A DNA stretch of 64,000 nucleotides from a bacterium UBP8_UBA817. GTDB taxonomy: Bacteria; Margulisbacteria; Marinamargulisbacteria; SXXA01; SICP01. Position numbers and translations under genes: made by a program. Shown one piece after another: positions 52,050 through 58,836 of this stretch; positions within the stretch are counted from its first letter, which is position 1, and every line of letters begins with the position of its first letter. The stretch is taken from positions 1 through 64,000 of the forward strand of contig CAMCZW010000005.1 of assembly GCA_945888435.1 (NCBI GenBank). Direction: 5' to 3'. Below the pieces are notes generated by a model that worked only from the letters and a program-made list of their open reading frames with translations, had not been told where the DNA came from and ran no database searches.

Positions 52050-52077
52050 TTGATTTTGTCAGGTCTCACTTTATAAT
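52050..52077 (+). promoter_or_regulatory. Promoter of the TPR / FliF-FliG operon
   Basis: TTGATT (52050-52055) and a consensus TATAAT (52072-52077) are spaced by 16 bp, 36 nt before the next ATG. It separates this two-gene operon from hemL. Confidence 0.75.
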
Positions 52078-52113: not shown

Positions 52114-53160
52114 ATGAAGTATCGGGCATTGCCATTACTTTTCGTATCGTTTTTTTCTCTTAGTATTTTTTACATGTCTCCTCTTTTGGCGCAATCTCGG
52201 ACTACGTTTGGGATTAAAACTGCACCAACGGGAGTGGCCCCTGTACCTGCAGCTCAACCTGTCGAGCCCACAGCCGATGAAGTATCTGAAGAGGATGCCC
52301 GTAAATCGCTTCAACCAATGCTTAAAACCTATCAATATCCAGATGCTCTCCGCCTTTTAGAATCACTACCTAGTGATCAACTTACCCAGAACGATGTGGT
52401 GCTTAAAGATCGATTGAGTGTCATTGTAACTGTAGATCAAAGCGAAGATAATTCGGCCAAAATTATTCAAGGCGATGATGATTTGGATCCCGAGGATCAA
52501 GATACGATTAAACGATTATATCGTGAGGCGCAACGGTCATTTGTTTCCGGTGATGATGAGCTAACCAAAGATCTCCTTATTCAAATTGTTTATATTAGTC
52601 GCCGTCATTTTAAAGCTAAGCAATTTTTAAAATTGGGATTTGGACTTGATACAGGTGGCTATCAAGTTGAAGATAAGCAAACCAAGTTTTGGGAACAATC
52701 TTCTGTGTTTTTTTATGGCGGTAATTATGAGCGTGCAGTTAATGTTTTAAAAATGCTGGCTGTTTTTGATCCTAAGAATTCTAAGGTTCATGAGCGAATG
52801 GGATCAGCGTATTATATGCTGAGTCAAAAAAAGGAAGCGATTGAGGCTTGGACCACAGCATTATTTTTAGATCCTAACAATAAAACTCTAGAGCATTTTA
52901 TTGCTGAAACCGAAAAAGCCTTAACTGTTGATAAAGAATCCGCAAAGCGTGCTAAGGAGGAAAAGCAAAATCGTAAAAAAGAAGGAGGCTCTGACGCTAG
53001 TGCTGGTGCTGAAATGCAGCTTTTGGGGGTTTTCCCAACCCAAGCGAAAGCGTATTCTTATGCTCAGAAACTAAAAGAGGAAAACCTTAATCCAGTTGTC
53101 GAACAACTTGATAATGGAAAATGGTCTGTCAGCGTCCCTAAATCTAAGAAGTCCAACTAA
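52114..53160 (+). CDS. Secreted TPR protein with SPOR-like C-terminus
   Basis: 348 residues. A signal peptide (about 1-26, ending LLAQS) is followed by an Ala/Pro/Glu linker, helical TPR-type repeats over about 50-270 (YGGNYERAVNVLKMLAVFDP, KEAIEAWTTALFLDPNN), a Lys/Glu-rich segment and a short end (LLGVFPTQAKAYSYAQKLKE) resembling a SPOR fold, which binds bare septal glycan strands. GGAG lies 8 nt before the ATG. It ends 9 nt before the FliF-FliG gene, so the two are probably co-expressed and might act together in the periplasm. Confidence 0.75.
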   Translation: MKYRALPLLFVSFFSLSIFYMSPLLAQSRTTFGIKTAPTGVAPVPAAQPVEPTADEVSEEDARKSLQPMLKTYQYPDALRLLESLPSDQLTQNDVVLKDRLSVIVTVDQSEDNSAKIIQGDDDLDPEDQDTIKRLYREAQRSFVSGDDELTKDLLIQIVYISRRHFKAKQFLKLGFGLDTGGYQVEDKQTKFWEQSSVFFYGGNYERAVNVLKMLAVFDPKNSKVHERMGSAYYMLSQKKEAIEAWTTALFLDPNNKTLEHFIAETEKALTVDKESAKRAKEEKQNRKKEGGSDASAGAEMQLLGVFPTQAKAYSYAQKLKEENLNPVVEQLDNGKWSVSVPKSKKSN

Positions 53161-53169
53161 GGAGTAATA

Positions 53170-54627
53170 ATGAAATTTAAATCTTATCTGTTTTTACCCC
53201 TGTTTATTTTTTGCTGTGCGACATCTTTGTCTGCCGCAACAAGTGATGAAGCTGTTTTAGAGCAATCCTTATCTCAAAAAGCTCAGCAGACTTTAGACCG
53301 TATTTATGGTGAGCGAAACTTTGTTGTGGATGTGGATGTCGATATGACCACTCCAAAATATGAAGTTAAATATACCGAACAATCTAAGCCTAGAGGTGTT
53401 ACTCAACCTAAAAAACAAGATGAGATAAATGTTTTACCTGGATACCCGGTTTTAAAAAACTTGGCTCCAGATTCAATTTCCAAACTTCCGTTTGATTCGA
53501 TTACTACTTATGTACGGCCTACACTACTTAAAACTCGGGTCAAGATTGTGGTTAATAAAGCATTTTCTAAATCACAGGCTGGACGTGCACGTGAAATGGT
53601 GGTTGAGTTATTGGGTCTTCAATTTCCTCGAGATACAATCGAAATTACTTACAAAACGTTTTATGATGCGGATGAATTAAGACAAGTCAAAGCAGCAAAA
53701 CAAGAAACCACTACATTTACACAGCGTTTTCTTATTCCCTCCACAATGGTTACATTGGGATTAGCGGCATGGTTTTCTCTCTTGTTTTTGGCCTTTATGT
53801 GGGTGCAAAGCCGTTCTAACGCAAAACAAGGTCGCGGTGGAGATGCTGCGGCTGCTCCAGCACCAAATGTAAGCGTAAATCCTAACTTTGAAATGCCAGA
53901 ATCCTCAGGTGGAGGTGGTGGAGCTGCTGCAGTGGTTCAATCAGATCATGCCATTAAACGCTACTTTGATTTTATTAGTGAAAATAACGTTGATGAGTTG
54001 CTCTATCTGATTCGCAGTGAAAATATGTCTGTCGAAAATATTTCGATTATTGTGTCTTTTTTACCTGCACGATTGGGTGCAAAAGTAATGGGAGAGCTTG
54101 ACTTGCAAAATCAGGCAACAATTACAACCAACATTTTGAGTCAGAGGGTCGTTAATCGCGCTTATTTGGATAAATTAGAAGGCCGCGTACGCGACTGGCT
54201 TGAATGTCTTGTTGGCGGTAAGTCGTCGTTTGTGAGGCTATTCACATATGTGTCGGGCGAAGTTAAAAAACAACTTATGGGAGTTTTGGGTCAAACCAAC
54301 CGTGATGCGTATCGCATGTTTAGAGAAAGTGTTGTTATTTTTGATGATCTTAAGTTTCTTTCGGATGATGAGCTTAAGCTGGTCTTGTCGGAGTCTAACA
54401 TTGAATTATTATCGACGGCGCTTGTGAGCGTTGAAGATTCAACGCAGCAAAAGATTAACTCTAATTTAAATCAAAGTGCAAAAGAAATGATTAGGCAGTA
54501 TTTAGACTTGAAGGGCAAGACGATTTCTAAGCGTGATATTGAGGCGGCTCAGGACTATGTTATCAATATCGTAAACAAGCTCGAGGCCGAAGGCAAGATC
54601 AACCTTAGATCGAAGATCTCCGTTTAG
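53170..54627 (+). CDS. Fused FliF-like periplasmic / FliG-like cytoplasmic protein
   Basis: 485 residues. Signal peptide about 1-22; residues 25-175 resemble the ring-building region of the flagellar MS-ring protein FliF (LEQSLSQKAQQTLDRIYGER, NFVVDVDVDM, VRPTLLKTRVKIVVNK); one membrane helix at about 187-213; a Gly/Ala/Pro linker; then FliG-like middle and C-terminal domains over about 260-478. The latter show SENMSVENISIIVSFLPARLG (FliG EHPQ region position), VVIFDDLKFLSDDELKLVLS (torque-helix region) and the FliG-type ending IEAAQDYVINIVNKLEAEGKI. No other flagellar gene is present, so function is unknown; a non-flagellar rotor or scaffold is possible. AAGGAG precedes the ATG. Confidence 0.85.
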   Translation: MKFKSYLFLPLFIFCCATSLSAATSDEAVLEQSLSQKAQQTLDRIYGERNFVVDVDVDMTTPKYEVKYTEQSKPRGVTQPKKQDEINVLPGYPVLKNLAPDSISKLPFDSITTYVRPTLLKTRVKIVVNKAFSKSQAGRAREMVVELLGLQFPRDTIEITYKTFYDADELRQVKAAKQETTTFTQRFLIPSTMVTLGLAAWFSLLFLAFMWVQSRSNAKQGRGGDAAAAPAPNVSVNPNFEMPESSGGGGGAAAVVQSDHAIKRYFDFISENNVDELLYLIRSENMSVENISIIVSFLPARLGAKVMGELDLQNQATITTNILSQRVVNRAYLDKLEGRVRDWLECLVGGKSSFVRLFTYVSGEVKKQLMGVLGQTNRDAYRMFRESVVIFDDLKFLSDDELKLVLSESNIELLSTALVSVEDSTQQKINSNLNQSAKEMIRQYLDLKGKTISKRDIEAAQDYVINIVNKLEAEGKINLRSKISV

Positions 54628-56533: not shown

Positions 56534-57331
56534 ATGTTCCGTGTTTTTTTTCTCCTATTTTTTTATTGTGTGGCTTTAGGGCTTCCTGCTGAGGCGTTGG
56601 GATCTCGGGTTTCGCTGGATCCTAAACCTGTTAAGCGACGTGTTGAAGTGAAGCGTAAGCCTGTTGAAAAACCTATTGTGCATCATCATTTGCCGACTGC
56701 AGATGCGGTTCGAGCTGTTGTGCCAGCAGTTCAGGTGGCGTCTGTATCTAATACGCCCACGGTGTCGACTGCAGTATCTAATACAGTTCGTATCGCCTTA
56801 CTTCGCGAGCTTGAACTTGTGAGACAGAGTATTCAAGATGATAGACATGCGACAGCCCTATCAACGATGCAGCATTTATCGGACCGCCTTCGGGCGATAC
56901 AGACGGATGTCATTGAATCCTTTTTTCCAGATACATTTCAAACACTGACGCCTCAGGGTAGGCCATCTTTAGAATATGTATCTGATCGATTTGGAGTCAT
57001 CTTTTCCCGTCGGTATTTAAATCCGTCTTCTGGGCAACATTTGGATGTTTCTGTGATTCATCTGGATTCATCTGTACAAGAGTATTGGGATATTGTTAAA
57101 AACCCTAAACTAGCGGCCCATTTGGATACGGCCAAAATTATTGAAATCCAGGATGGGTATCGGGGGCTAGAAAAAGTAAATCCAACTTTAGGCCTGATCG
57201 AACGCAATATCGTATTGAGTGATAGCTTGATGGTGAATATTGTGGCGGGTGGCAAAGATGTTAACCAGCTTATATTGGACTATACCCGACAAGTTCAATT
57301 TGGTAAGTTAAAGCGTTATTTGCAAGACTGA
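56534..57331 (+). CDS. Secreted protein of unknown function
   Basis: 265 residues with a signal peptide (about 1-23, MFRVFFLLFFYCVALGLPAE) and a basic Pro/Val/Lys linker (KPVKRRVEVKRKP). Helical part around 85-130 (LLRELELVRQSIQDDRHATAL) and an alpha/beta region to the end (YVSDRFGVIFSRRYLNP, LDVSVIHLDSSVQEYW). No family is recognised. A Shine-Dalgarno site near the ATG is not clear; GAGG lies about 25 nt upstream. It ends 34 nt before tRNA-Thr. Confidence 0.7.
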   Translation: MFRVFFLLFFYCVALGLPAEALGSRVSLDPKPVKRRVEVKRKPVEKPIVHHHLPTADAVRAVVPAVQVASVSNTPTVSTAVSNTVRIALLRELELVRQSIQDDRHATALSTMQHLSDRLRAIQTDVIESFFPDTFQTLTPQGRPSLEYVSDRFGVIFSRRYLNPSSGQHLDVSVIHLDSSVQEYWDIVKNPKLAAHLDTAKIIEIQDGYRGLEKVNPTLGLIERNIVLSDSLMVNIVAGGKDVNQLILDYTRQVQFGKLKRYLQD

Positions 57332-57365: not shown

Positions 57366-57441
57366 GCTCCTGTAGCTCAGTCGGTAGAGCGTATCCATGG
57401 TAAGGATAAGGTCATCGGTTCGATCCCGATCGGGAGCTCCA
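57366..57441 (+). tRNA. tRNA-Thr (anticodon GGT)
   Basis: 76 nt with encoded CCA. Acceptor GCTCCTG/CGGGAGC, D-arm GCTC/GAGC, anticodon stem TATCC/GGATA around ATGGTAA (anticodon GGT), T-arm ATCGG TTCGATC CCGAT. The glcD-type gene begins 9 nt after its 3' end. Confidence 0.95.
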
Positions 57442-57450
57442 GAAACTAGT

Positions 57451-58836
57451 ATGGATTTTACCCTCATTATTCATCATCTTCGCAAGCGCCTCTCAGACTC
57501 TCAGGTTGTTATATCTGATTTGGAGAGAGAAGCGTATTCTCATGATCGTTCTCCCTATTTTGGGCCAGTTTCTTTGGATTTTATTATTTTGTTCCCCCAC
57601 TCTGAGAGTGATGTGGAATTTATATTAAAAACATCAGATTTTTTTAATATTCCGATTGTGGTTCGAGGTGCAGGGACGGGTACGACGGGTGGCGCACTTC
57701 CCGTAACAGCCTGCTTGATGATGTCATTTGAAAAAATGGATCGTATTTTAGAAATTGATGTTGAAAATAGAGTAGCAGTCATTGAACCGGGTGTAATTAC
57801 CGGTAATTTACAGCGTGAGGTGTCTGAAATTGGGCTTTTTTATCCGCCGGATCCAGCCAGCCTTGAGACCTGTACAATCGGTGGGAATGTGGCCGAGAAT
57901 GCCGGTGGTCCTCGATGTCTTAAATATGGGGTAACCCGAGATTATATTTTGGGATTATCTGGATTTTATGTGGATGGCACTCCGTTTCATTTTGGTGGCA
58001 AACTTAGAAAAGATGTGGCCGGTTATGACATGATTGGGCTTTTGGTGGGGAGCGAAGGAACACTCGCTGTTATCACTCAAATTATTGTGAAGCTGATTGC
58101 ATTGCCTCTTGAGGGCCCTCTGATTCACTGCGCATTTACGAGTTATGATGAGGCATTTTTTGCGCTCAACTCTATTTTAACCTCTGGGGTAAGCCCAAGT
58201 GCTGTTGAGTTCATGGATACGGCTTGTCTTAAGGCGATTAAGACCTGTCATGGAATTGATATTCAAGATAGTGACCACCCTGCTCATTTATTGATTGAAC
58301 TGGATAGTCATGATGCCGAACAATTCAAGAAAGATACAGAGATTATTCTGGATATTTTAAATCGAAGTCAAAGCTCGGTTCAGGTGATGTCTAGTGCATC
58401 CGAAAAAGAAATTCTCTGGAAAACTCGCCGCTTAATTTCACGTTCTCTCAAACAGCTTTTTCCTCAAAAAATCTCCCATGACATTGTTGTCCCTGTGTCT
58501 CGGGTATCCACTTATATGGCCTTTATTTCTCAACTTTCAATAGAATCTGGAATTCAAATTATTGGCTATGGCCATTTGGGAGATGGGAATATCCATGTAA
58601 ATATCTTAATTCCACCAGATTGTGAAGATGCTCATATTGGAGAAATATTAACGCTTCAAATACTTGAACAAGCTATTTTACTTAAAGGAAGTATCACCGG
58701 CGAGCATGGGATTGGAGTTACTAAGAAACCGTTTTTAAATCTGATGTTTTCAGAGTACGATATCACGATCTTTCGAGGAATCAAGCGTACTTTTGATCCA
58801 AAGAATCTTTTAAATCCACATAAAATTATTGACTAA
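57451..58836 (+). CDS. FAD-linked oxidase, GlcD / D-lactate dehydrogenase family
   Basis: About 461 residues. The FAD domain has VVRGAGTGTTGGALPVT, GVITGNLQREV and CTIGGNVAENAGGPRCLKYGV; the C-terminal domain has the conserved GYGHLGDGNIHVNI and SITGEHGIGVTKKPF. Members oxidise glycolate, D-lactate or related 2-hydroxyacids; the substrate is not determinable here. I start it at the ATG at 57451; the frame is open upstream through the tRNA gene but that is coincidental. There is no Shine-Dalgarno in the 9-nt gap to tRNA-Thr. Confidence 0.93.
   Translation: MDFTLIIHHLRKRLSDSQVVISDLEREAYSHDRSPYFGPVSLDFIILFPHSESDVEFILKTSDFFNIPIVVRGAGTGTTGGALPVTACLMMSFEKMDRILEIDVENRVAVIEPGVITGNLQREVSEIGLFYPPDPASLETCTIGGNVAENAGGPRCLKYGVTRDYILGLSGFYVDGTPFHFGGKLRKDVAGYDMIGLLVGSEGTLAVITQIIVKLIALPLEGPLIHCAFTSYDEAFFALNSILTSGVSPSAVEFMDTACLKAIKTCHGIDIQDSDHPAHLLIELDSHDAEQFKKDTEIILDILNRSQSSVQVMSSASEKEILWKTRRLISRSLKQLFPQKISHDIVVPVSRVSTYMAFISQLSIESGIQIIGYGHLGDGNIHVNILIPPDCEDAHIGEILTLQILEQAILLKGSITGEHGIGVTKKPFLNLMFSEYDITIFRGIKRTFDPKNLLNPHKIID

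Follow-up and report, generated by a model that had tools for sequence, protein, structure and literature searches.

The window analyzed here, a stretch of 64,000 nt, belongs to a 1.36 Mb genome (G000, 92% complete) of the phylum Candidatus Margulisiibacteriota (Marinamargulisbacteria/UBP8 lineage). Its forward strand contains a single open frame, running from an ATG at position 53170 to a stop codon at 54627 and with the ribosome-binding site AAGGAG just 5′ of the ATG, which codes for a 485 aa protein (P0001) designated here FliFG. The gene for a 348 aa TPR protein (positions 52114–53160, forward strand) ends 9 nt before it, and a promoter-like site (TTGATT-16-TATAAT, 10/12; positions 52050–52077, forward strand) lies ahead of the pair; the frequency of promoter-like sites around these genes is not above chance. 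Mis-binning of the operon was ruled out, because the same hemL and rho flanks recur in related genomes.

From its N to its C terminus, FliFG comprises a putative signal-peptide-like segment (residues 1–23, positions 53170–53238; inspection of the sequence and helix 4–20 of the AF2 model), a FliF RBM3 or S-ring (SpoIIIAG-like) domain (residues 26–165, positions 53245–53664; AF2 model, Foldseek and hhalign), one transmembrane helix (residues about 188–213, positions 53731–53808; inspection of the sequence and AF2 helix 167–220), a Gly/Ala-rich linker, a FliG middle domain (FliG_M, residues 266–346, positions 53965–54207; Pfam, phmmer and Foldseek) and a FliG C-terminal, or torque, domain (FliG_C, residues 374–479, positions 54289–54606; Pfam and alignment), all of them on the forward strand. 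In the AlphaFold model, residues 71–107, inside RBM3, form a disordered collar segment with an LPG motif. The protein lacks RBM1, RBM2 and the first transmembrane helix (TM1) of FliF, as well as FliG_N.

Pfam assigned FliG_C to residues 374–479 with 64.2 bits (cut-off 23.3) and FliG_M to residues 276–342 with 21.9 bits, slightly below the cut-off of 25; additionally, residues 265–478 matched the M and C domains of Thermotoga FliG by phmmer (E = 9e-17), and the profile of the 19-member FliFG family matched FliG with E = 1e-33. The FliG equivalog model TIGR00207 gave 50.5 bits vs. a cut-off of 226.7, and FliFG does not qualify as a full N-M-C FliG. None of the Pfam FliF models matched the N-terminal half, and the YscJ_FliF region (PF01514; RBM1 and RBM2) was absent from P0001 and present in the separate FliF of the same genome; hhalign, comparing its profile with that of FliFs from this phylum, recovered RBM3 with 96% probability (E = 2e-9). 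The AlphaFold model had a mean pLDDT of 74, with most of the domains at 80–93 and low values in the linkers; it retrieved in Foldseek the solved FliF S-rings (E from 4e-6 to 4e-5), the FliG M and C domains (1lkv; E = 1e-8) and SpoIIIAG, each with a probability of 1.0. The Pfam, phmmer and Foldseek matches rule out a chance similarity and confirm a real, unusual fusion of FliF RBM3 with FliG M and C. The preliminary description had read this gene as one 485-residue chain joining a FliF-like periplasmic region to FliG-like middle and C-terminal domains; Pfam, phmmer, hhalign and Foldseek agree with it, including the structural match of both halves, except that the FliF-like region is partial.

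The TPR protein is periplasmic and forms an operon with FliFG; it shows a signal-like N-terminus, helical/TPR repeats and a C-terminal beta-alpha-beta-beta mini-domain. A SPOR domain, suspected by eye at its C-terminus, was discarded, as no SPOR model matched and the fold search retrieved TPR folds only; a BFVD fold search gave no match. In G031, two single chains of 911 and 886 aa (L052:11749–14484 and L053:9140–11800) unite TPR, RBM3, the transmembrane helix, FliG_M and FliG_C; Pfam found an SLH domain and TPR in the 911 aa chain, and the N-terminal part of the 886 aa chain was assigned by its likeness to the former. The existence of these natural fusions supports a joint function of the adjacent TPR and FliFG genes. 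We also observed that, with the SLH-bearing chain of L052, rotor and MotB would perhaps both be anchored in the cell wall, an arrangement difficult to reconcile with rotation.

Full-length FliFG occurs in 20 genomes of the class, although in G018 the end of a contig interrupts it; a full-length TPR protein is present in exactly the same 20 genomes. The fusions are conserved down to 26% identity across 19 aligned members, with invariant residues, and form one clade apart from flagellar FliG (support 98/100). Comparison of the operon in relatives, proposed in the preliminary description, placed MotA-MotB immediately after the fusion gene in 15 of the 20 class genomes having TPR-FliFG. Likewise, among 56 genomes of the phylum, FliG_C and MotB_plug were found together in 29, FliG_C only in two, MotB only in none, and neither in 25 (p = 6e-14, uncorrected for relatedness). 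The MotBs compared retain the proton-binding Asp. In the order to which the window belongs, MotAB is mostly missing beside FliFG, and G000–G003 carry it elsewhere; the search of the genome for these stator genes was thus successful, with MotA-MotB on contig C14 of G000. These are closest to the stators of a related module, system B (see below), i.e., of another type than the MotAB adjacent to fusions, and the pairing of FliFG with MotAB in this genome rests on elimination because they are both non-adjacent and of another type.

Among the window ORFs read there is no flagellar gene besides FliFG, in agreement with the preliminary description, but this does not hold for the genome. Contig C22 carries FliM, FliN, FliO, FliP, FliQ, FliR, FlhB and FlhA, together with a sigma factor; contig C16, FliH, FliI and FliJ; and contig C3, FlgF/G-like proteins, FlgA, FlgH, FlgI, FlgC and FliE, as well as a full FliF, after which comes a 227 aa FliG that has the N domain and part of M but lacks the C (torque) domain. 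FlhA, FliI, FliM, FliN, FliO, FliF, the truncated FliG and the FlgF/G-type proteins were checked with Pfam models, whereas FliP/Q/R, FlhB, FlgA/H/I, FlgC, FliE, FliH and FliJ were assigned by sequence and gene order. FliFG contains the sole FliG_C of the genome. Flagellin_N was found neither in this genome (92% complete) nor in 27 class genomes, and appears in eight genomes elsewhere in the phylum; also, there were just two Flg_bbr_C matches, FlgG-sized and both in the rod operon, and no recognizable hook gene, although a very divergent hook could escape detection. A complete flagellum was rejected in view of the missing flagellin and of these Flg_bbr_C matches. The initial picture of a protein without a flagellum is therefore right as to the filament, and wrong as to the basal body and export apparatus, with FlhA, FlhB, FliPQR and FliI all present.

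A basal body with a C-less FliG is also found in genomes that we label as WOR-1-type (G032), which have neither FliG_C nor MotA/MotB. FHIPEP, the export gate, is present in 49 of the 56 phylum genomes, nearly all FliFG-bearing genomes also carry a basal body, and no complete genome with FliFG and no basal body was found among those examined. In this phylum, evolution seems to have uncoupled export from rotation, given that the basal body was kept without the torque domain. Basal body and export genes lie at L110 (G032:C1), L078, L079 and L090, in genomes without MotA/MotB or flagellin, and at L107 in the window's genome; L110 and L107 include a FliG without its C domain besides genes for the rod and the P/L rings. 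Loci of this type look like a secretion machine with neither motor nor filament that is widespread in the phylum. In G000, the export operon includes a gene for a ParA/FlhG-like ATPase between fliM and fliN (L072:5424–6179).

The reading that we prefer, and to which we give an even chance, is that FliFG is the rotor of a flagellum-derived, MotAB-driven envelope machine that has no filament and needs no export gate of its own. RBM3 would form an S-ring-like periplasmic ring, the single helix would span the inner membrane, and the FliG_M-FliG_C part would constitute a cytoplasmic ring pushed by MotA/MotB, with torque or force reaching the periplasm via the TPR protein encoded just upstream. From the observed domain identities, operon, family conservation, co-occurrence with MotAB and TPR protein, and TPR-FliFG fusions, we infer that the ring forms and rotates, the direction in which force is transferred, and a purpose that may be envelope work, surface motion or outer-membrane transport; the preliminary description had suggested gliding, secretion or envelope organization as examples.

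Less probable, although it is the alternative that survives best, is that FliFG constitutes the torque ring of the reduced basal body of the same genome, joining or surrounding the FliF ring and supplying the missing FliG_C, so that the rod is rotated by MotAB within the P and L rings. The genome does encode FliF, the FliG with N and M only, FliM, FliN, rod, FlgH, FlgI and the export gate, and the wide distribution of FHIPEP means that FliFG is seldom seen without it. Additionally, TPR-FliFG(-MotAB) directly adjoins the basal-body operon in G004 and G006, which suggests a link between both and counts against a separate machine; in the remaining class loci read, however, the two operons are not adjacent. 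Moreover, the FliM-binding EHPQ motif is absent from 19/19 members of the FliFG family, and the WOR-1-type genomes indicate that the basal body does not require a motor. Rotors also exceed export gates in several genomes, with FliG_C vs. FHIPEP counts of 6 to 2 in G031, 7 to 2 in G043, and 3 to 1 in both G019 and G021. A separate machine is thus favored because the fusions form their own clade and have lost the FliM motif, because FliG_C rotors outnumber export gates and motorless basal bodies persist, and because the basal body already has a FliF and a FliG of its own.

FliG is the flagellar rotor protein pushed by MotAB, and the preliminary description took the C-terminus of FliFG as the place where stator units push. 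The domain is there, but its canonical charged torque residues are not: in the numbering of the E. coli motor, the equivalents of FliG K264, R281, D288, D289 and R297 are V, S, Q, Y and S in the window's FliFG. The same positions differ in 19/19 fusions, being hydrophobic or small; S, G, A or T; Q (once E); Y or F; and uncharged, respectively. Similarly, in 13/13 MotAs encoded beside a fusion, the E98 position is non-acidic and R90 is not an arginine (one lysine), while the MotA of G000 keeps E98 and has H at 90; the residue numbering is partly restated in PMC12505986. Conversely, the flagellar FliG of G028, from the same phylum, keeps the torque residues as K, R, E, E and R, with EQPQ as its FliM motif, and five system B FliGs retain R281 and E288/E289. 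The loss of FliG-type charges in all these fusions and of MotA charges in the 13 adjacent MotAs indicates that both partners changed together. A force-transmitting role is plausible, but the loss could also mean that torque itself was lost.

That FliFG is a static membrane ring or anchor, in which the FliG fold is kept and torque is no longer received, perhaps like the FliF-FliG fusion known from Chlamydiaceae, bacteria not thought to be flagellated (PMC4768692), seems to us improbable. It would account for the replacement of all five torque residues and of both charges in the adjacent MotAs, and an SLH domain such as that of the fused relative would anchor the periplasmic side to the cell wall, but a scaffold needs no stator, and the strict co-occurrence and operon linkage with MotA/MotB and the conserved proton-binding Asp of MotB speak against it. 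An eroding vestige of a former flagellar rotor, without any current function, would fit the lack of filament genes in the class and the torque residues unlike those of flagellar FliG, yet it is already largely refuted and very improbable, given the full-length frames in 20 genomes with invariant residues and a preserved operon, the separate clade, and the several FliG_C genes kept alongside a normal flagellum in flagellated relatives.

Other modules in the phylum resemble the one described. System B (L083:1774–10632, L064:5271–10756, L065:7617–12995 and L071:5372–12356; genomes without flagellin) consists of a separate FliF-like protein, an N-M-C FliG, a FliM-middle-like protein in which the SpoA domain is missing, MotA, MotB and a pair of barrel-like proteins, although no MotAB was seen in the L065 stretch. 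The two barrel-like proteins, putatively outer-membrane barrels as judged from their sequence, bear C-terminal TPRs; the family profile relates these repeats to the TPR protein of the window, at E values as low as 1e-12. In flagellated relatives, L049:11782–19512, L051, L054, L055 and L069 encode giant proteins of ~2,500 aa, whose genes come after those for FliFG and a second FliG and, often, for MotAB; the giant protein from L049 contains Ig-like and FlgD_ig domains. If FliFG is the rotor of an envelope machine, force in related modules would travel further, reaching proteins that bear outer-membrane-barrel-like, S-layer-homology or Ig-like domains.

More tentatively, and with somewhat less confidence than we place in a rotor role for FliFG, we propose that the Margulisiibacteriota detached rotor and stator from the flagellum and expanded them into a set of independent envelope motors for gliding or outer-membrane transport. 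These would combine FliFG (or split FliF-FliG-FliM) with MotAB and with TPR proteins whose partners are outer-membrane-barrel-like, S-layer-homology or giant Ig-like, and stator and rotor would touch without using the classical charge pairs. A conserved FliF-FliG fusion accompanying MotAB in filament-less genomes would mean that the rotor-stator pair is separable from the flagellum and re-usable, and FliFG would offer a natural minimal rotor for structural work and a test of whether torque needs the classical MotA-FliG charge pairs.

FliFG shares with the flagellar FliF-FliG rotor and its MotAB stators the RBM3 (S-ring), FliG_M and FliG_C folds, the MotA/MotB partners and the proton-binding Asp of MotB; it differs in being a single chain devoid of RBM1, RBM2, TM1 and FliG_N, in the loss of EHPQ and torque charges, in the absence of a filament and in having a TPR operon partner. 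FliF and FliG are separate in ordinary flagella, as the preliminary description pointed out, but a natural protein in which FliG is fused to a shortened FliF had already been described for Chlamydiaceae (Bergeron, 2016; PMC4768692). This is the nearest known fusion, and it keeps different parts: a portion of the SctJ-like region is missing from it, as is the SpoIIIAG-like domain, and its cytosolic part is homologous to FliG M (PMC4768692), whereas FliFG retains the opposite part, the SpoIIIAG-like RBM3, together with FliG_C, and is accompanied by MotAB. Artificial fusions made in Salmonella and Vibrio show that FliF and FliG can function or assemble when joined in a single chain (PMC4768692, PMC11481574); these are laboratory constructs of flagellar proteins, while FliFG is natural. 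The non-flagellar MotAB relatives ExbBD, TolQR and AglRS are ion-driven stators working outside swimming (PMC12505986); the broad study of MotAB and these relatives mentions FliG once, as the flagellar rotor, and no FliG-type rotor ring for ExbBD, TolQR or AglRS, whereas the MotA/MotB of this phylum match MotA-/MotB-type models. Our literature search, which covered few subscription papers, found no paper on Margulisiibacteriota motors or such modules.

Near the FliFG operon, positions 56534–57331 of the window code for a conserved exported-looking protein from an unassigned family (cluster c13), which lies beside rho and is found near the operon in several relatives. The listed start of the ORF at 57397–58836 overlaps a tRNA-Thr gene (57366–57441), and its true start is probably located further downstream.
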